Source: a virus. From it: 42,820 nt of DNA. Made by a program: the position numbers and the translations under genes. The notes under the pieces are model-generated. The model worked only from the letters and a program-made list of their open reading frames with translations, was not told the origin of the DNA and searched no databases. Where the stretch lies: the IMG/VR virus record IMGVR_UViG_3300027365_000027, positions 1-42,820 of that record. The stretch is one strand, 5' to 3'. The stretch's first letter is position 1. Each line of letters starts with the position of its first letter. Below, piece by piece: positions 20,991 to 35,338 of this stretch.

Positions 20991-21167
20991 ATGCGAAAGG
21001 ACTTCGAGGCCTGGCTTGCCAAGCGACTCAATGAGAAGAACCGCACCACCTACTGGACCCAGGAACGGGTGCGAGAGCACATGACCCACGACGGTCACTA
21101 TGGCCGTAAGGACTGGAACATGGCCCATGACGCCTACCTTGCCGGACGCTGCCATCCTCACAACTAG
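20991..21167 (+). CDS. Small basic protein, 58 aa
   Basis: I prefer the ATG at 20991, just after the previous stop, over an in-frame ATG at 20979 that would overlap the neighbour. The product is basic and His-rich (REHMTHDGHYGRKDWNMAHD), with a repeated aromatic pattern. It lies 10 nt before RNA polymerase subunit 1. Small phage proteins with 'AYLAGR' C-termini are common in phages, but I know no function. Confidence 0.6.
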   Translation: MRKDFEAWLAKRLNEKNRTTYWTQERVREHMTHDGHYGRKDWNMAHDAYLAGRCHPHN

Positions 21168-21177
21168 GGAAGAGACC

Positions 21178-22128
21178 ATGACCCAGCCTGTTACCCACAT
21201 GCTGCCCCGTGACATGCAGCTGACCAACGAATCCCTGTACTCGAAGAAGGCCATCGACTGCTACATCGACCGGGAGATTCGTGACAATCCCGACATGGAA
21301 GCCAAGGTCATCGAGGGCATGCAGCGCCTCGAGGCCTGGCGTGCCAAGTCCTACTACGACTCCAAGAATGCCCGACTGGCCCAGCTCGACGGGCTGGACC
21401 TGGAGGAGGTGGTCAGGCGCATCTACATCAACGTCGCCTACTGCCAGCTCCCGGAGCTGTTCACCTCTGTGACAGGCCGGCTGGCCGGCGTGCTGCGCAT
21501 GTCCGAGAAGGGCGATGGCATCACCACCATCGGCGAGATGCTGGCCGTGCTGTGCCTGACCGATGTCTTCGACATCATGAAGGAGAACGCCATGGCCAGC
21601 CTCAAGGTGCAGAGTCACATTCCCCTGAGCGAGCGCCTCATCGAGTACGTCAGTCAGGCCCGCTACCTGCCGCCCATGGTCTGCGAGCCCGCACCCGTGA
21701 CCCACAACTTCGAGAGTCCCTACCTGACCGAGAACTCGTGCCTGATTCTCGGCAAGGGCAATGGCCACACCGAGGACATCTGCCGTGACGTGATCAACAC
21801 CCAGAACCAGGTGCCCCTGAGTCTCAACCTCGAGATGCTCACCACCATCGAGCTGTTCCCCAAGCCCGGCAAGGAGCCGGTCACGCCCGAGGATCAGGAG
21901 CAGTGGCACCGCTACAAGGTCCAGACCTACGAGGTCTGTCACCTGATGGCCAAGCAGGGCAACCGCTTCTGGCTGACCAACAAGGTCGACAAGCGGGGGC
22001 GCCTGTACTGTCAGGGCTACCAAATAAATTTACAGGGATCTGGATGGCACAAGGCCGTGCTCGACTATGCCGACAGGGAGACCGTGGAAGGCGTGCCAGA
22101 CAGCCTCAGGCTGCCACCACGGGCCTGA
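21178..22128 (+). CDS. T7-like RNA polymerase, subunit 1 (N4 RNAPII gp15-like)
   Basis: This encodes 316 residues. It covers the N-terminal and thumb-side half of a single-subunit RNA polymerase up to the T/DxxGR motif, seen as DKRGRLYCQGYQINLQGSGW (DKRGR at 271-275). T7 polymerase has DWRGR followed by a NPQG-type loop at the same place. The frame then ends after VEGVPDSLRLPPRA, just where the T7 sequence continues into the region found in the next polymerase gene. N4 RNAPII is likewise two proteins. It would transcribe middle genes. Codons for the conserved Tyr-Gln-Ile-Asn-Leu-Gln stretch (22021-22043) are abruptly AT-rich. Confidence 0.82.
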   Translation: MTQPVTHMLPRDMQLTNESLYSKKAIDCYIDREIRDNPDMEAKVIEGMQRLEAWRAKSYYDSKNARLAQLDGLDLEEVVRRIYINVAYCQLPELFTSVTGRLAGVLRMSEKGDGITTIGEMLAVLCLTDVFDIMKENAMASLKVQSHIPLSERLIEYVSQARYLPPMVCEPAPVTHNFESPYLTENSCLILGKGNGHTEDICRDVINTQNQVPLSLNLEMLTTIELFPKPGKEPVTPEDQEQWHRYKVQTYEVCHLMAKQGNRFWLTNKVDKRGRLYCQGYQINLQGSGWHKAVLDYADRETVEGVPDSLRLPPRA

Positions 22129-22566
22129 TCGCCACCTCAGCCGACCCAAGGCCCTTCTACCGCGGTAGCGGTGCTCACAGGCCCGTACAGGGCCATTCAC
22201 GGAAAGCCGTGTAGGAAATCGCCGACAATCCAGTGAACACGTCTTAACTACCCTTTGCTTAACGGGCATACTCCCACTTTCTGATGAGCGGCTTAAGGCG
22301 AGCCGCCCAGCCAGGGACCGGAGGCCGCAGTTCCGAGAAAGCGGTGACGGGCGAGCGCTTGCGCAGCAAGCGAGCCCGGAGCCGCTGCCGCGGAAGTAAG
22401 GCCGAGGGGACCGCTGCTGGGTTGGGCGCCTTAAGCCCGTCTCCGCGGTTCCGCCCGAACGCATTCCTTATCTATAAGGAATTTCACGGAACCGCTCTGG
22501 AATGCGGGTTACAGCCCGGCATCTGCACCACTTGCACCGGAATCTGGTGCAGATCGGAGATCCCAC
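22129..22566. other. Highly structured 438-bp non-coding leader, possible origin or RNA element
   Basis: No gene is visible. The stretch holds CTACCGCGGTAG (22157-22168, perfect palindrome), GGCCCGTACAGGGCC (22180-22194), CACGGAAAGCCGTG (22199-22212), and a 148-bp imperfect palindrome (22290-22437). Then come ATTCCTTA TCTA TAAGGAAT (22463-22482) and a 10-bp stem ATCTGCACCA/TGGTGCAGAT (22521-22554) that ends just before the ribosome site of the next gene. Such density suggests a structured RNA, a replication origin or a mobile element end. No group I or group II core was recognised. Confidence 0.6.
22290..22437. repeat. 148-bp imperfect palindrome
   Basis: The outer arms are GGCTTAAGGCG (22290-22300) and CGCCTTAAGCC (22427-22437). 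The inner arms GGGCGAGCGCTTGCG and CAGCAAGCGAGCCC meet at about 22363. The symmetry axis is the same for both, so this is one long hairpin rather than separate repeats. Confidence 0.75.
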
Positions 22567-23154
22567 ATGAGTCAGTTTCAGCCCCTCGAGGACGCACGCG
22601 TCGACCTCGACAGCGGGGAGCTTGTCGTCTCCCGACAGTACCGCAGCGACCGGCCCTACCGAGCGGATACGCAGCCGGTCCAGCCCACCTTTGCCGACAT
22701 CCGCAGCATCGCCGGCCTGCGCCGGTTCCTCGATCATGTCGATCGCCGCACCCTGGTACGTGCCAACGACTGCCGTCGCATCTATGACCGCGACAAGGGC
22801 AACCACCACCTGCAGAGGCGAGCCATCGTCTTCACCAACCACCAGTACGGGCATCTCGACCGGCTGGTGCGCCAGCTCGACTACGCCAATGCCGTGATCA
22901 CCACGCCCGTGGATCTGGCTCGGCGCCTGGGCGTGCGTCGCAACCACCTGTATCGCCACCTTGAGACCCTGACGCCGCTGGTGCGGGTCTACGGGGTCCG
23001 CGAGGGCATGGCCAAGGGCAGCATCCGGGTCGATGTCAGTCCCGCCTATGGCTTCCGCTATCCCAGTCCGTGGTTCGGGCTGGCACGGGCCGAGGCCATC
23101 CAGACCTGGTACCTGTCCCTGTTGCAGCAATACAACACTGCATTATTGCAATAA
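22567..23154 (+). CDS. Winged-helix Rep-like or regulator protein between RNAP subunits, 195 aa
   Basis: The ATG at 22567 follows CGGAGATCCCAC. Residues about 95-160 form a winged-helix pattern: LVRQLDYANAVITTPVDLAR, then RLGVRRNHLYRHLETLTPLV, ending in a wing and the 'VSPAYGFRYPSPWF' turn. That order (helix, recognition helix, basic wing, aromatic turn) is typical of RepL-type plasmid replication proteins and phage replication/transcription factors. The N-terminal part is Arg-rich. The gene separates two RNA polymerase subunit genes, has a strongly folded leader, and its stop lies inside an octamer-repeat element. Replication initiator and regulator both remain possible. Confidence 0.6.
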   Translation: MSQFQPLEDARVDLDSGELVVSRQYRSDRPYRADTQPVQPTFADIRSIAGLRRFLDHVDRRTLVRANDCRRIYDRDKGNHHLQRRAIVFTNHQYGHLDRLVRQLDYANAVITTPVDLARRLGVRRNHLYRHLETLTPLVRVYGVREGMAKGSIRVDVSPAYGFRYPSPWFGLARAEAIQTWYLSLLQQYNTALLQ

Positions 23155-23160
23155 TGAAAT
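23139..23160. repeat. TGCA octamer-repeat element, copy 7
   Basis: CTGCATTATTGCAATAATGA carries two TGCA cores 8 bp apart and contains the stop codon of the Rep-like gene. It lies 35 bp upstream of RNA polymerase subunit 2. Confidence 0.7.
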
Positions 23161-23194
23161 AACCGTTGGATCCAAGAACTTAGGAGATCACCCC

Positions 23195-23434
23195 ATGACC
23201 CATTACTCTGCCTTCGAGTACCTGCTGATTGATGTGGCCAACCAGATGGGCCACGACAAGCTGCTGTTCGGGGAACGAATCCAGTGGACCCTCGAGCGTA
23301 TCGATCACCTCGAGGAGCTGCTCGGCGAGGCCGAGAACCCGGAGCGCTATGCCCGGGCCGTGATGGCGGTGCGCGAGGCCCAGCGGGGCGAGGCGACCGG
23401 CCACCGGGTGGGCCTGGATGCGCTTTGTTCGGGT
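23195..23434 (+). CDS. T7-like RNA polymerase subunit 2, fragment a, exon 1
   Basis: The start ATG at 23195 has a strong TTAGGAGATCACCCC site, supporting an independent subunit as in N4 (gp16-like). Exon 1 gives 80 residues; LLIDVANQMGHDKLLFGERI matches the T7 polymerase segment before motif A. It ends at LDALCSG, with the motif A catalytic Asp at residue 75. The exon ends in T at 23434, as group I splice sites do. Without splicing the frame stops two codons later (AAA TGA). Codons at the junction (CTT TGT TCG GGT) are atypical for this GC-rich genome. Confidence 0.82.
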
Positions 23435-23765
23435 AAATGACTGCCCCTTTGGTGTGCGAGCACCATCGAAAACTCCGTGAATTGCTGGGACACCTGACCG
23501 CGTGATGGCGAAGGCAATCAGCAGCCAAGCCCTAGGAGGAATCCTAGGGAAGGTTCAACGACTAGGGCATACCATCCAGACCGGATGATGAAGCCCATAA
23601 GGATCAAGCGATCCTGAAGTGCGGAGCACCTCAACGAGGTGATGATATAGTCTCACCTGCATAGAAATATGCAGCAGCATCAGCAGATTTAAAGGGTACA
23701 CCTTTGGTGATCTGCCAAGGCCTGATGATGCGGACATCGAGTAGCGATCGATGTTGAAGATTGTG
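23435..23765 (+). ncRNA. Group I intron in RNA polymerase motif A (331 nt, no ORF)
   Basis: Core elements in order: AATTGCTGGGA (P), AATCAGCAGCC (Q), GGTTCAACGACTAGGG (R) and GATGATATAGTCT (S), the conserved group I set. The intron ends in G at 23765. Splicing joins LDALCSG to VQIMSALTG and restores the T7 motif A (T7 has LDGSCSGIQ). It encodes no endonuclease, so it is minimal and probably depends on another nuclease for mobility. Its core is very similar to that of the MoxR intron. Confidence 0.88.
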
Positions 23766-24194
23766 GTTCAAATCATGAGCGCCCTGACCGGATGCCATGC
23801 CGGGGCGCGTGCCACCGGCCTGATCGATACCGGCGAGCGCCCCGATGCCTATACCGCGGTGACTGATGCCATGAACCGCATCCTGCTGAGCCAGGGGCTC
23901 AACGTGAACGTGTCCCGCAGTGATGCCAAGCAGGCCGTGATGACCTCGATGTACGGCTCCCGGGCCGAACCCAAGCGCATCTTCGGTGAGGATACCCCGG
24001 AGCTTGCCGCCTTCTATCAGGCGCTGGAAGAGGTGGCACCGGGCGCCTGGAAGCTGTTGCAGGAACTGCTCGACTCCTGGCAGCCCTATGCCCTGGAGCA
24101 CCGCTGGGTGCTACCTGACGGCTTCGTGGCCCGCGTCAAGGTCATGCAGGAGATCGAGAAGCGTCTCGAGATCGACGAGCTCCCACTAGATTAG
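23766..24194 (+). CDS. T7-like RNA polymerase subunit 2, fragment a, exon 2
   Basis: This exon continues the frame for 142 residues (fragment a totals 222). It carries motif B, SRSDAKQAVMTSMYGS, with the Lys (residue 135) and Tyr-Gly that in T7 contact the incoming nucleotide, and VLPDGFVARVKVM, matching T7's TPDGFPV region. It ends EIDELPLD and a stop, although a full polymerase would continue into HATFTYVW, which is found after the inserted HNH gene. The fragment therefore lacks motif C and cannot be a complete catalytic subunit alone. Confidence 0.82.
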   Translation, partial: VQIMSALTGCHAGARATGLIDTGERPDAYTAVTDAMNRILLSQGLNVNVSRSDAKQAVMTSMYGSRAEPKRIFGEDTPELAAFYQALEEVAPGAWKLLQELLDSWQPYALEHRWVLPDGFVARVKVMQEIEKRLEIDELPLD

Positions 24195-24251
24195 TGAACC
24201 ACGCTACTGTTTGCTATTATACCGGCATATCACTAATGCAAGGAGCACCGC

Positions 24252-24915
24252 TATGCCTAAGCCCATCGATCTGACCGACCACACCTACGGACGCCTGACT
24301 GTGCTGCGGGAGGTTGATCCTCCTGTCTATCCCCGCAAATGGCACTGCCGCTGCGAGTGTGGCACCGAGAAGGTGATCACCGGAGCCTCTCTCCGCAATG
24401 GTAAGACGCAATCCTGCGGGTGCCTTAACAAGGAGATTCTGTCGGCCAAGGGCACTGTCCACGGTGCCCACGGCACCCGGCTCTACAGCATCTGGCACAA
24501 CATGCGCCAGCGCTGTAACAACCCCAACCGTAAGACCTATGCCTACTACGGGGCCCTGGGCATCACGGTATGCCCTGAATGGAACACCTTTGCCCCCTTC
24601 AAGGCATGGGCAGAGTCCTCGGGCTACGAGGACGGTCTGACGCTGGATCGCAGGGATGGTAGCCAAGGTTACTCCCCTGAGAATTGCCGATGGGTGACGC
24701 ATACGGTTCAGTCACGGAACCAGAAGAAGCGACGTACCAATACCACCGGCCATACAGGCGTTCATTACCTCAAGCACCTGGGCAAGTACGAGGTCTACCT
24801 CACGCTCAGCTACAAGAAGACCGTCCTGGGCTACTTCGACACCGCGGATGAGGCAGCAGCAGCGCGTGCCGCCTACATCAAAGAGAACAATCTCACCGAC
24901 TTTCCCACCGACTAG
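24252..24915 (+). CDS. HNH/AP2-type homing endonuclease splitting RNA polymerase subunit 2
   Basis: The ATG at 24252 has AAGGAGCACCGCT upstream; the product is 220 residues. A zinc-finger-like N-terminus (CRCECGTEKVITGASLRNGK, then CGCLN) is followed by the phage homing-nuclease core: YSIWHNMRQRCNNPN, then YGALGITVCPEWN, then LTLDRRDGSQGYSPENCRWV. The last 55 residues are an AP2-like DNA-binding domain (GVHYLKHLGKYEVYL, then LGYFDTADEAAAARAAY). It has its own ribosome site, and only 57 nt precede and 12 nt follow it between the two polymerase fragments. It is therefore a free-standing nuclease that has fractured the gene. Confidence 0.82.
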
Positions 24916-24927
24916 AGGAAGAATCCC

Positions 24928-25527
24928 ATGGGTCATGCAACGTTCACTTATGTCTGGCAGGAAAATCGTGGGCAGGAATCCGGCCTCTCCAATGTGGCAA
25001 ATGTTATACATTCCTGCGATTCGTACCTCCTCAGGTGCTTGATTCGCCGCTGTAATTACAACGTGGAGCAGACCGAGGCTGCCTTGAATGCCTGCTTCAT
25101 GCGCCTGGTCGAATGCGACCTCCATGGCTTGACTCCTCACCCTATCGCGGAGGCTCCCGAGGCGATCCAGAAGTATTCAGAACGCTTCCACGCCACCAAT
25201 ATGGCGGATGTCGTCATCATCCCTTACCTGACTGAGGATACTGCCATCTACCTCACCGAAGACCATCTCCGCAGGCTCGCCAACATCATGGAGGAGATGC
25301 TCGATCATCCGCCGTTCCCGGTGACCTCGATCCATGACGAGTTCTGTGCCCACGCCAACCACCTCAACGTCCTGCGCCAGCAGTACGTCAACATCCTCGC
25401 CGAACTGGCCGACTCGACCATCCTCGACGACATCCTCTCCACCCTCCATGGCTGCCAGGGCAGCTACCAGAAGCAGAGCAGCGACCTCAGCCAGTACATC
25501 CGCGAGGCGGAGTACGCGATCGGCTGA
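24928..25527 (+). CDS. T7-like RNA polymerase subunit 2, fragment b (motif C)
   Basis: The ATG at 24928 follows AGAGGAAGAATCCC, so it can be translated on its own; 199 residues. HATFTYVWQE continues where fragment a stops. NVANVIHSCDSYLLR matches T7 NFVHSQDGSHLR, and FPVTSIHDEFCAHAN is motif C with the catalytic Asp (137). The palm therefore has one metal-binding Asp in fragment a and the other here. Fragments a and b together (about 421 residues) match the length expected for the N4 RNAPII large subunit. The first codons are AT-rich like the other insertion junctions. Confidence 0.82.
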   Translation: MGHATFTYVWQENRGQESGLSNVANVIHSCDSYLLRCLIRRCNYNVEQTEAALNACFMRLVECDLHGLTPHPIAEAPEAIQKYSERFHATNMADVVIIPYLTEDTAIYLTEDHLRRLANIMEEMLDHPPFPVTSIHDEFCAHANHLNVLRQQYVNILAELADSTILDDILSTLHGCQGSYQKQSSDLSQYIREAEYAIG

Positions 25528-25548
25528 GCCTCCTACAGACGACAAGGG

Positions 25549-25563
25549 GTGCGCTCCGCGCAC
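25549..25563. repeat. TCC-loop hairpin, copy 1
   Basis: GTGCGCTCCGCGCAC is a perfect 6-bp stem with loop TCC, as in the early promoters. The AGG start-site sequence is missing at the right distance, so it is not assigned as a promoter. An identical copy lies at 25704. Confidence 0.6.
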
Positions 25564-25579
25564 TCAATGAAGTACATCA

Positions 25580-25617
25580 CGGGAGTCTCCTCAGTCGAGG
25601 GGGCTCCCGGTTTTTTT
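25580..25617 (+). terminator. Intrinsic terminator after RNA polymerase block
   Basis: CGGGAGTCTCCTC and GAGGGGGCTCCCG pair in a long stem followed by GTTTTTTT. It is among the strongest terminators of the window. Confidence 0.9.
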
Positions 25618-25703
25618 GACCCACTCCAGAACACCCCAACCCCCAACACCCCTCTTGAGTCGAAACACCCACGCCGCTCGATCAGCGCCCTGGTCGACAA
25701 CAG

Positions 25704-25718
25704 GTGCGCTCCGCGCAC
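25704..25718. repeat. TCC-loop hairpin, copy 2
   Basis: Identical 15-mer to that at 25549, 155 bp away. Its left flank GACAACAG recurs before a related hairpin at 38566. Confidence 0.6.
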
Positions 25719-25860
25719 CCGGCGACGGTGGCGACACCGGCTCAGACAGTCTCCAGCGACAGGGGAATAGAAGTCCCGAGACTTCTCCCCGGACAGTCCG
25801 ACGATGTTCTAACTGGCCGAAATCGGCCCTCTCCGACGATACAACGACGAGGCAATATCC

Positions 25861-26298
25861 ATGGCTCGACCCAAGCTCAACGACCAGCAGCAAGCCCGTG
25901 TGGTGGAACTCCACGACCAGGGCAAGCAGCAGCAGCACATCGCCGCGTACTTCAACGTCAGTACCCGCACGATCTACCGGATACTCGAGGCCCACGGCCG
26001 GATCACCACCCGCAGCCACCTTACCGACCAGGAGCAGGACACCCTGGCCCTGGTACGCAAGGCCGACCTGTCCGTGCCGCAGCTCAAGCAGCGCCTTGAG
26101 CAGATCCCGCTGACCGCGGAGACCGTGCGTCTGGCCCTGCTCCAGATGACCGCCGAGGAGCTCGGTGGCTACTTCATGTCGATCCTGCGCGACAAGATCG
26201 TCGACGACCTGAACCAGAAGACCGAGGCCCAGGCACAGTCCCGAGCAGCGGCCCGCGCCAGTAATGGCGAAATGGCCCAGGAGGAACTCTATGGGTGA
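25861..26298 (+). CDS. Helix-turn-helix DNA-binding protein, 145 aa
   Basis: Residues 5-55 form a resolvase/Hin-type HTH (RVVELHDQGKQQQHIAAYFN, then VSTRTIYRILEAHGRI), with the recognition helix at TRTIYRILE. The second half holds a less clear helical domain with Gln-rich and Leu-rich segments and no recombinase catalytic Ser. It is therefore a DNA-binding regulator or terminase-small-like protein rather than a recombinase. It opens a new operon after the 333-bp gap, and the next gene starts 8 nt before its stop, so the two are coupled. Confidence 0.7.
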   Translation: MARPKLNDQQQARVVELHDQGKQQQHIAAYFNVSTRTIYRILEAHGRITTRSHLTDQEQDTLALVRKADLSVPQLKQRLEQIPLTAETVRLALLQMTAEELGGYFMSILRDKIVDDLNQKTEAQAQSRAAARASNGEMAQEELYG

Positions 26299-26861: not shown

Positions 26862-26953
26862 GTATCACCGTATCCCTCGACCAGGTCCACGACGACATCG
26901 TGCGCTGCATCAAGGCCCGCCTGACCCCGATGCTCTGGGGCTCGCCAGGTATT
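26858..26953 (+). CDS. MoxR-like AAA+ ATPase, exon 1 (N4 gp24-like)
   Basis: The 32 codons from the ATG at 26858 end in LWGSPGI, the first part of the Walker A loop. The exon ends in T at 26953. Joining to exon 2 (GKSGL) gives GSPGIGKS, a perfect P-loop (residues 28-35). The start overlaps the upstream stop. The final codons (CCA GGT ATT) are atypical for this genome, as at the other intron junctions. Without splicing the frame stops at once (TAA). Confidence 0.85.
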
Positions 26954-27192
26954 TAACTTTTTCTAGGTACCTTTGGGGAGCAATCCCCTCAAAATAAACC
27001 CCTTGAATTGCTGGGAACCCCTGAAGCCCTGTCACCACAGGCACCGCGAAAGCAGGTGTCGAAGGTTAGAAAACGACAGGGATTGGGCAATCAGCGGCCA
27101 AGCCCCTAAGTCCTTTGGATATGGGGAAGGTTCAACGACTAGCCGCAAGGCGTACACCTCAAGCGAGGTGGAAGTGGGGGGCTCCGTTATTT

Positions 27193-27231
27193 TTGACTTT
27201 CCGTGCGGTGCTCCCTATATTATTGGAGCAC
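27193..27231 (+). promoter_or_regulatory. Host sigma70-type promoter with operator-like repeat for intronic HNH
   Basis: TTGACT (27193-27198), 17-bp spacer, TATATT (27216-27221). The -10 lies in the loop of a perfect inverted repeat GTGCTCC/GGAGCAC (27208-27214, 27225-27231), which could bind a repressor or fold in RNA. It lies 29 bp before the HNH start. Confidence 0.65.
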
Positions 27232-27249
27232 ACCTTACGAGGATTAAGC

Positions 27250-27870
27250 ATGGAAACGTTCAAGGACATTGTAGGATACGAAGGCCTTTACCAAGTCTCT
27301 GACCAGGGACGAGTCATTAGCCTGAGACGCCAAATAGAATTGAAGACAGATGTCTTCACTTCTGGCTCTGTCAGCTATGCTCGCGTCACCCTGAGCAAAG
27401 ACAGTAAGACTGAACGCTTCTTGGTGCATCGCTTGGTTGCGATGGCCTTTCTCCCGAATCCTGATGAAAAGCCCTGCGTAAACCATAAGGATAACAATGG
27501 GTTAAACAACAGTTCGGATAATTTGGAATGGTGTACGTATTCCGAGAATATGCAGCATTCCGTGAAGCAGGGTCGTCAGGCCCTTGTTCAGTCAAATGCC
27601 ACCCAGGCTGCAGTCGTGCCGAATTACAATCGGTACACGGACTACTGGAGAACGAAGCTAGGTGAGCGCTTTGTTGCGTTCTACCCCGCACATCAGGTGG
27701 TGCATGGCGGAACCAAGCCTTGTGCCGCTGTCCGGTATATTTGCAGCGAATGTGGCATCAGCCGTCTCAGTCGAACAAACTGGGCTGAGATTCGTGTTCA
27801 CAAAGGTGTGTGTCCTAACTGCACCTACACAGTGTCCCTAACGGATGAAGATATAGTCTCGACTGCGTAG
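27250..27870 (+). CDS. Intron-encoded HNH homing endonuclease (NUMOD4 + HNH)
   Basis: The ATG at 27250 has GAGGATTAAGC upstream; 206 residues. NUMOD4 at the N-terminus (FKDIVGYEGLYQVSDQGRVI), then the HNH core (LVHRLVAMAFLPNPDEKPCV, then NHKDNNGLNNSSDNLEWCTY) at about 60-100. The C-terminal part carries four Cys (CSECG, CPNC) forming a zinc ribbon not seen in the polymerase-intron relative. Its GC is far lower than the surrounding exons. It probably cleaves intron-less MoxR alleles at the P-loop. The stop codon lies inside the intron S element, a tight co-adaptation. Confidence 0.88.
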   Translation: METFKDIVGYEGLYQVSDQGRVISLRRQIELKTDVFTSGSVSYARVTLSKDSKTERFLVHRLVAMAFLPNPDEKPCVNHKDNNGLNNSSDNLEWCTYSENMQHSVKQGRQALVQSNATQAAVVPNYNRYTDYWRTKLGERFVAFYPAHQVVHGGTKPCAAVRYICSECGISRLSRTNWAEIRVHKGVCPNCTYTVSLTDEDIVSTA

Positions 27871-27930
27871 AAATACGTAGAAGTTCATAAGAGAACTGGT
27901 GGCGGGGTAGCGCCCGCCATTGAAGATACG

Positions 27931-34505: not shown

Positions 34506-35338
34506 TAAAGATAGGGCTTCATGCTGGTAACAGCATGTCGAAAACTGCCTAAACGGGGAAACTCCTATGGTATCTTACCTATGGTATTATTCTTCCATCA
34601 CTAAGCTACCAAAGGACAATCCCGTGCTAAATTCTACACCTGAGATTGGAAAACCCATCCCCGGTTTTGAGGACCTCTACGAGGTCTCCAACCATGGACG
34701 GGTCAGTAACTTTCGGAAGATTCTCAAGACCTACAAGATCAACAGTGGCTACCTGGCCCTCAAGCTACAGAAGGATGGCAAGGTAAAAAGCGTGCTGTTG
34801 CATCGTCTGGTTGCAGAACTGTTTGTCCCTAACCCAGAAGGGAAGCCTGAGGTGAACCACATCGATGGCAACAAGGAGAACAACAGGGCTGACAACCTGG
34901 AGTGGGTCACTAGTGCTGAGAATAAGGCTCATGCCCGTTCGACAGGCCTGTCTGTCTACAACATGCCAGGCAAGGGCGTGAAGAAAGCCACCACCAAGTC
35001 CAGGTATCACAACGTGGCTTGGGATTCTTCCCGAAAAAAGTGGGTCGGCAAGGTCACAATCAACAACCGCAACTACAAGCAACGGCGGTTTGATGATGAG
35101 ATCGAGGCGGCACGCTACGTCAATCAGTTACTGGATGAGCTGGGCTTGTATGACCGGCCCCGCAATCAGGTGTAGATAAACGCCGAACGACTATCCCGCA
35201 AGGGAGTAGGGTGCAAGCCAATGGCACCCGAAACGGCAGTCACCCTTAGGGGTGTTGATATAGTCTGCTCTGCATGGCGACATGCAGCAGTTCATAAGAG
35301 AACGGGGGAGGGCGTTGCGTCCCTCCTCGAACACAAGG
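34506..35338 (+). ncRNA. Group I intron in DNA polymerase (833 nt, with HNH ORF)
   Basis: Core: AAACTGCCTAAACGGGGAAA (P region), GCCGAACGACTATCCCGCAA (R) and GTTGATATAGTCTGC (S). It starts after T (34505) and ends in G (35338). Removal joins SSSDP to NLQQIP, restoring the family A signature. The HNH ORF is placed before R, unlike in the MoxR intron. The 3' region GTTCATAAGAGAAC is shared with the MoxR intron. Confidence 0.9.
34624..35175 (+). CDS. Intron-encoded HNH homing endonuclease (NUMOD4 + HNH + AP2)
   Basis: NUMOD4 (GFEDLYEVSNHGRVSNF), the HNH core (LLHRLVAELFVPNPEGKPEV, then NHIDGNKENNRADNLEWVTS) and a C-terminal AP2 domain (YHNVAWDSSRKKWVGKVTIN, then RRFDDEIEAARYVNQLL). The start is uncertain. 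I annotate the GTG at 34624, which has AAAGGACAATCCC upstream; ATGs at 34567 and 34579 are alternatives but lack a good site. It presumably recognises the conserved DPNLQ coding sequence of intron-less polymerase genes. Confidence 0.82.
   Translation: MLNSTPEIGKPIPGFEDLYEVSNHGRVSNFRKILKTYKINSGYLALKLQKDGKVKSVLLHRLVAELFVPNPEGKPEVNHIDGNKENNRADNLEWVTSAENKAHARSTGLSVYNMPGKGVKKATTKSRYHNVAWDSSRKKWVGKVTINNRNYKQRRFDDEIEAARYVNQLLDELGLYDRPRNQV

Follow-up and report, generated by a model that had tools for sequence, protein, structure and literature searches.

An HNH endonuclease gene interrupts the RNAP2 gene of an N4-like phage between the codons of its two catalytic aspartates

In the phage of IMG/VR virus record IMGVR_UViG_3300027365_000027, the gene for RNAP2, which together with RNAP1 forms the N4-type RNA polymerase II, is fractured by an HNH endonuclease gene, and the two catalytic, metal-binding aspartates are encoded on separate polypeptides: D75 in exon 1 of the upstream piece (fragment a) and D137 in the downstream piece (fragment b). 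The record, a linear stretch of 42,820 bases from a single metagenome, was analysed at its full length and is called the window below; judged from its RNA polymerase genes, the phage is N4-like. We believe that a free-standing homing endonuclease has made a gene-in-pieces RNAP2, which would work as RNAP1 plus fragments a and b, and we put the probability of this at roughly two in three.

The anatomy of the break follows from alignment to intact relatives (Table 1). These read EVDEL-D-HATFTY without interruption, where the window has EIDEL, then PLD and a stop codon, 58 nucleotides (nt), the HNH gene, 12 nt, and an ATG-GGT directly joined to HATFTY. Exon 2 of fragment a is native through 24182, its PLD and TAG stop being contributed by the insertion, as is the new ATG of fragment b, and the insertion swaps one RNAP2 codon with no other native sequence lost. 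A preliminary description of this DNA, made from the sequence alone, had proposed the fracture, the placement of the aspartates and HNH flanks of 57 and 12 nt; the continuous relatives and the one-codon replacement bear out the fracture, the separation of D75 from D137 holds, and of the two distances the second (HNH stop to start of b) is as given, while the first (stop of a to HNH start) is one nucleotide longer.

Both pieces belong to RNAP2. The phrog_2051 (RNA polymerase) profile, 401 positions long, is matched at 81-217 by residues 6-144 of the exon-2 open reading frame (E = 2.9e-54) and at 217-400 by residues 1-198 of fragment b (E = 1.8e-47), and N4 RNAP2 (6dt7_B), to which the preliminary description had pointed, is also matched by both (E = 5.2e-11 and 5.1e-19). 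Since the pieces match phrog_2051 end to end and N4 RNAP2 as well, the split match is beyond chance. Exon 1, which lies outside the phrog_2051 pieces, matches relatives by tblastn. The features of an N4-type RNAP2 are thus present in palm and fingers homology with motifs A, B, and C, and in a separate gp15-like RNAP1 gene nearby, whose product is the presumed partner of fragments a and b; what is missing is one polypeptide with all three motifs, because of the stop at 24192-24194 and the new start at 24928 in another frame. Fragment b does have the ribosome site of its own and the motif C ascribed to it, but the site is an ordinary one, with a duplex energy of -6.0 (RNAP1: -5.7) that 25% of the + strand ATGs in the window equal.

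No recognisable intron is present in the insertion, as the preliminary description had argued: a permissive Rfam scan of 24100-25100 returned no intron at E ≤ 10, the sole match up to E = 10 being to a small RNA family on the opposite strand (E = 1.1), and the conserved catalytic core of a group I intron was not found. With RNAP2 insertions at other sites serving as positive controls, an intron was rejected for this second interruption. An intein or readthrough was rejected too, as stops follow both fragment a and the HNH gene, and fragment a is in a frame other than that of HNH and fragment b, which together preclude one continuous protein. Translational bypass was set aside because we know of no parallel for a skip of ~730 nt over a complete gene. 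The arrangement is that of a split by a free-standing nuclease: relatives have the gene in one stretch, and in the window a nuclease gene, and no intron, separates its two parts.

The interruption of RNAP2 in motif A is a group I intron. The RF00028 match, well above the gathering score of 50 bits, spans 23425-23674 (E = 7.8e-21) and includes the catalytic core, and the T before the intron and the G as its last base follow the group I boundary rules (PMC5746245). It contains no + strand open reading frame of at least 60 residues wholly inside it and aligns to same-site introns of Litunavirus VL1, PAP02, and two IMG/VR loci. Judged from these features it should splice out and give a fragment a with motifs A and B, in line with the spliced fragment of the preliminary description. 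Four sites of RNAP2 besides the HNH site carry group I introns in related phages, namely motif A, motif B, residue 239/240 (L002 protein numbering), and motif C; the interrupted loci (L025/L129, L035-L037, L040, L072, L100, L121, L128/L175, L136-L139, L195, L209, and L217) are from Schitoviridae and related IMG/VR contigs, and group I was called where Rfam matched. At gathering score, a group I intron was found in 7 of 16 loci (motif A in L035, L037, L040, L100, and L128; motif C in L025 and L121) and not in five others in which RNAP2 has an insertion (L072, L136-L139). Permissive scans, which covered L072 and L138 of these five, assigned the sub-threshold insertions in motif B of Vibrio phage 1.169.O (L138; E = 1.1e-5) and in motif C of L072 (E = 0.0013) to group I, together with that in motif B of L195 (E = 1.8e-5); the intron at residue 239/240 is that of L217 (71.1 bits).

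At the HNH site itself, the relatives are unbroken. An RNAP2 match was present in 207 fetched loci. The window is one of them, and another, L208, starts within the RNAP2 gene; in the remaining 205 the match crosses the site without interruption. These 205 comprise 192 IMG/VR loci, with 97 distinct 300-nt stretches as contigs were often fetched repeatedly, and 13 taken from named phage records. An 81-residue query spanning the site matched 384 phage records at 384 places, once in each (384/384) and with at least 80% of the query covered; the 60 matches listed with their pieces are all of one piece, and an insertion-bearing record might miss the E-value limit. Fragment b alone as query found nothing in IMG/VR and exon 2 found 33 IMG/VR loci; the alignment scans comprise the best 80 of 177 and the best 80 of 130 matches, and records very close to the window may be absent from the survey.

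The nearest relative, IMGVR_UViG_3300035670_000470 (loci L142 and L109), is syntenic with the window, has a single RNAP2 frame of 415 residues without either insertion, and separates RNAP1 from RNAP2 by a gap of ~140 nt; neither the HNH protein nor its family has a match in this 42,468-base record, which may be incomplete. In trees of 196 sequences, collapsed to 96 distinct ones plus the window, L142 is nearest to both pieces: for fragment a, L023, L216, and L142 form the sister group of the window, and for fragment b the window pairs with L142, both with a support of 0.95. A foreign origin of fragment b is therefore unsupported.

Conservation of the two pieces was compared with 31 relatives, L025, L026, and L030 being left out of the conserved-column comparison and L027 in addition out of the tip-ratio comparison. 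Of the columns invariant in the relatives, fragment a keeps 20/20 and fragment b 15/16, catalytic residues included, the single change being a serine for threonine two residues before the motif C histidine; of columns conserved at 90%, fragment a keeps 42/43. The tip length of the window is at the 43rd percentile in the tree of a and at the 76th in that of b. From these sequence comparisons we read both pieces as still constrained; b may have undergone mild relaxation or adaptation. Base composition changes along fragment b: GC content and third-codon-position GC content (GC3) are 0.53 and 0.67 in its first third (24934-25131) and 0.63 and 0.94 in its last third, as against 0.64 and 0.83 in exon 2. 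Over the two 99-nt stretches that open b, GC3 is 0.55 to 0.67, a dip that looked like a conversion tract; b of L109 also dips, slightly further on.

The intact RNAP2 of the relative L002 was modelled with AlphaFold2 to place the break in the fold; the model has a predicted local distance difference test score (pLDDT) of 93.1 and superposes on N4 RNAP2 (6dt7_B) with Z = 47.1 over residues 1-412, and on residues 454-883 of T7 RNA polymerase with Z up to 24.1. The model has strands at 204-213 and 219-228, and the break, between L216 and H218, is in the turn of this two-strand hairpin. A profile of 37 relatives aligns the break to L752-G753-Q754 of T7 RNA polymerase, gap-free from PDGF onward. The specificity loop of T7 consists of residues 739-770, of which N748, R756, and Q758 contact the promoter (PMC5937735), so in the modelled fold the break is the turn of the hairpin equivalent to that loop. 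This makes reassembly more plausible, and the two pieces could plausibly dock again at the surface hairpin tip; in an AlphaFold2 model of fragment b alone (pLDDT 87.5) the first 15 residues, which include the strand expected to pair with fragment a, are below 50. A pattern emerges across RNAP2 in which the spliceable elements sit in catalytic motifs or another conserved core stretch and the non-splicing one, a single event, sits in a surface turn.

The HNH protein gave no Pfam match up to E = 1, and its assignment comes from phrog_374 and from homologs at 38-40% identity. In Pectobacterium phages phiA41 and Horatius these occupy the interval from RNAP1 to RNAP2, and the free-standing phiA41 homolog can be aligned over the length of the HNH frame. 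An HNH match occurs near RNAP2 in 13 of 127 loci, the window included, the other 12 being from two phage records and seven IMG/VR contigs; it is on the upstream side of RNAP2 in three loci (L026, L080, and L114) and on the downstream side in the other neighbouring cases. The window has one other phrog_374 match (34852-35124, E = 1.9e-9), which is short and weak. At the junction of fragment a with the insertion an RNA stem is predicted, with z = -2.83 for 24176-24248 (2 of 200 shuffles as good), -2.29 for 24174-24250, and -1.77 in a 106-nt stretch, these segments having been picked after the first fold was seen. RNA structures are reported to restrict the translation of phage homing nucleases, including mobE of phage Aeh1 (PMC2988022), and the predicted stem, formed by the end of a and the nuclease ribosome site, may likewise restrict nuclease translation or couple it. 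By analogy with collaborative homing, an idea taken from the same review (PMC2988022), the HNH gene may also help the motif A intron to spread, which ends 417 bases before the HNH insertion.

We propose that a free-standing HNH gene, of a family found beside RNAP2 in several related phages, would have entered the RNAP2 coding sequence and supplied the stop codon, the nuclease gene, and the ribosome site and ATG for the remainder. The mRNA would stay unspliced at the HNH site, and fragment a (once the motif A intron is removed), the nuclease, and fragment b would each be made separately. Fragments a and b, the first ending in strand 1 of the hairpin and the second beginning with strand 2, would then re-form palm and fingers with RNAP1, and the result would be an N4-type RNA polymerase II of three chains, with the aspartates of motifs A and C contributed by different ones. 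Such a split would be tolerated because the break is in the turn of the two-strand hairpin. In vitro, N4 RNA polymerase II shows no sequence specificity in its binding of single-stranded DNA, and gp2 recruits it, though a short AT-rich promoter is used (PMC4496689); because of this non-specific binding and recruitment, even a cut specificity loop may be tolerable. The full picture, of a natural three-chain T7-family polymerase made by a free-standing nuclease, with its aspartates on different polypeptides, one strand of the specificity hairpin in each piece, and a stem that may couple or limit nuclease translation, we rate at barely above even odds.

Several points weigh against a working three-chain enzyme. 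The window is one metagenomic contig, which may be a population variant or a mis-assembly; an intact RNAP2 may lie elsewhere in the genome, beyond the record; and expression and activity of the fragments are deduced from sequence and predicted structure. Fragment b keeps 30/35 of the columns conserved at 90%, and in a leave-one-out comparison 3/31 relatives do worse; it is less similar to relatives than the similarity of a predicts in 28/31 comparisons, and by b/a tip-length ratio (2.36) it ranks sixth from the top among 31. Finally, the T7 alignment over the hairpin is weak on its own (4.3 bits), with the conserved PDGF and HS flanking it. The divergence of b, somewhat greater than expected, would also suit a recent HNH lesion that inactivated RNAP2, the variant relying on co-infecting intact phages or another polymerase, or being lost; soon after such an insertion both pieces would still look intact. 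Inactivation is nonetheless unlikely in our judgement: the joints are clean, with a ribosome site and start codon right before the conserved HATF codons, frames are open and motifs conserved in both pieces, and the break spares the core, lying in a surface turn. The path to the nearest relative, 0.60 in a and 0.96 in b, is no longer in b than the whole trees predict (a ratio of 1.6 vs 1.78), and middle transcription in N4 requires both gp15 and gp16 (PMC4496689).

Two further explanations concern the insertion itself. Joining of an HNH copy from elsewhere into RNAP2 by the assembler would suit a metagenomic contig and the commonness of such HNH genes in phages (1580 phage records with a match), but we consider it very improbable: the insertion takes the place of one codon, at a conserved position, with the start codon and ribosome site directly there, the flanks are syntenic with L109/L142, the second phrog_374 match in the window is only the short, weak one, and the GC content of the HNH gene is near that of the phage (0.59 vs 0.61). 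Least probable of all, we think, is that the insertion is an intron of unrecognised kind whose splicing restores a full RNAP2. The group I introns at four other sites of the same gene, some below gathering score, lend this some weight; against it, the HNH frame takes up all but ~90 nt of the insertion, without an intron-family Rfam match at E ≤ 10 on either side, and the frame aligns full-length with a homolog that is free-standing.

Table 1. Positions of the RNA polymerase genes and inserted elements in the window.
Feature	Position	Strand	Basis
RNAP1 (N4 gp15-like small subunit)	21178..22128	+	phrog_2166 N4-like RNA polymerase, E = 1.9e-95; tblastn to relatives
RNAP2 fragment a, exon 1	23195..23434	+	80 codons, ends LDALCSG (motif A, D75); tblastn to relatives
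Group I intron, 331 nt	23435..23765	+	Rfam RF00028, 86.5 bits
RNAP2 fragment a, exon 2	23766..24194	+	VQIMS...KQAVMTSMYGS (motif B)...EIDELPLD and stop; sequence and alignment to relatives
Insertion in RNAP2	24183..24933	+	751 nt in place of 3; alignment to intact relatives
Predicted RNA stem	24179..24246	+	24179-24183 (last native codons of a) pair with 24242-24246 (HNH ribosome site)
HNH endonuclease gene, 220 residues	24253..24915	+	phrog_374, E = 1.1e-79; homologs beside RNAP2 in other phages; alignment
RNAP2 fragment b	24928..25527	+	MGHATFTYVW...SIHDEF, motif C (IHDEF; D137); profile matches
Terminator-like stem, 13 pairs, with T run, 3' of fragment b	25580..25609	+	

Other features of the window were noted in passing. 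Terminator-like sites in the region number 3, no excess over the shuffle mean of 2.8, and no sigma-70-like promoter was found in 21000-26000. The stretch 22140-22560, between RNAP1 and the next gene, is strongly structured (-200.3 kcal/mol vs -164.4 for shuffles, z = -5.69, 0/100 as good); neither Rfam (up to E = 5) nor a blastn search of the phage collection gave a match, and the stretch is absent in the nearest relative (L109). Adjoining it, 22567-23154 encodes a 195-residue protein with a weak helix-turn-helix match under the Pfam cut-off and one match in the phage collection (MT836130, 32.4%, E = 6e-9); no relatives were found in IMG/VR and GTDB genome scans. A second group I intron (26950-27880, 74.1 bits) carries a NUMOD4/HNH_3 frame at 27115-27870; its host gene is AAA+ ATPase-like by eye, a name that is unconfirmed, and the downstream part has no NCBIfam match.

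Ribonucleotide reductase and DNA polymerase are reported cases of split phage genes that retain function, and topoisomerase is an inferred one (PMC2988022). The comparison with Aeh1 NrdA, already drawn in the preliminary description, is apt: there too an HNH homing endonuclease gene (mobE) has inserted into an essential enzyme gene, at a conserved part, and gives two polypeptides, and the split enzyme is reported active (PMC2988022), but it is a ribonucleotide reductase whose function was tested, whereas the polymerase of the window is known from its sequence. The large subunit of T4 topoisomerase (genes 39/60) likewise has an HNH gene, mobA, associated with a split gene, and an extra subunit, its assembly being inferred from subunit structure (PMC2988022). 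A polymerase in two pieces is found in Aeromonas phage 25, a DNA polymerase (43A/43B) whose pieces are reported to co-purify and be active; the review leaves it uncertain whether a nuclease caused that split (PMC2988022).

Among RNA polymerases, the Litunavirus phages VL1, LP14, Pa_WF01, and PAP02 share with the window an interruption of RNAP2 at the motif A site, but their introns, with an internal open reading frame, should splice out to leave a single RNAP2 chain, unlike the HNH interruption described here. The polymerase of the jumbo phage PhiPA3 is multisubunit. One of its genes likewise holds an HNH element, which differs in being inside an intron (PMC11878797). Novelty among single-subunit RNA polymerases, as the preliminary description claimed it, stands in part: the open-licence literature searched yielded no case of a T7-family RNA polymerase split by a free-standing nuclease, but a 2015 review mentions two N4-like species bearing a virion RNA polymerase in which gp16-like sequences are split into two genes, with species and site not named there (PMC4496689). 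Intron-bearing RNAP2 genes of other phages may explain these.

Two further comparisons are with N4 RNA polymerase II and with engineered T7 RNA polymerase. Both subunits of the N4 enzyme (RNAP1/gp15 and RNAP2/gp16; 6dt7, 6dt8, and 6dta) are homologous to those of the window, but in N4 one chain carries motifs A, B, and C, and in the window two. If real and active, the polymerase of the window would allow a test of the extent to which promoter choice by N4-type polymerases depends on covalent integrity of the specificity loop. It would also be the natural counterpart of the engineered split T7 RNA polymerase, another T7-family enzyme, which is active as two to four co-expressed chains: 36 cuts were recovered, made with a transposon that, like the insertion in the window, supplies stop, ribosome site, and start, although the engineered splits are artificial and the three- and four-chain versions were cut at 67, 179, and 601 (PMC4299498).

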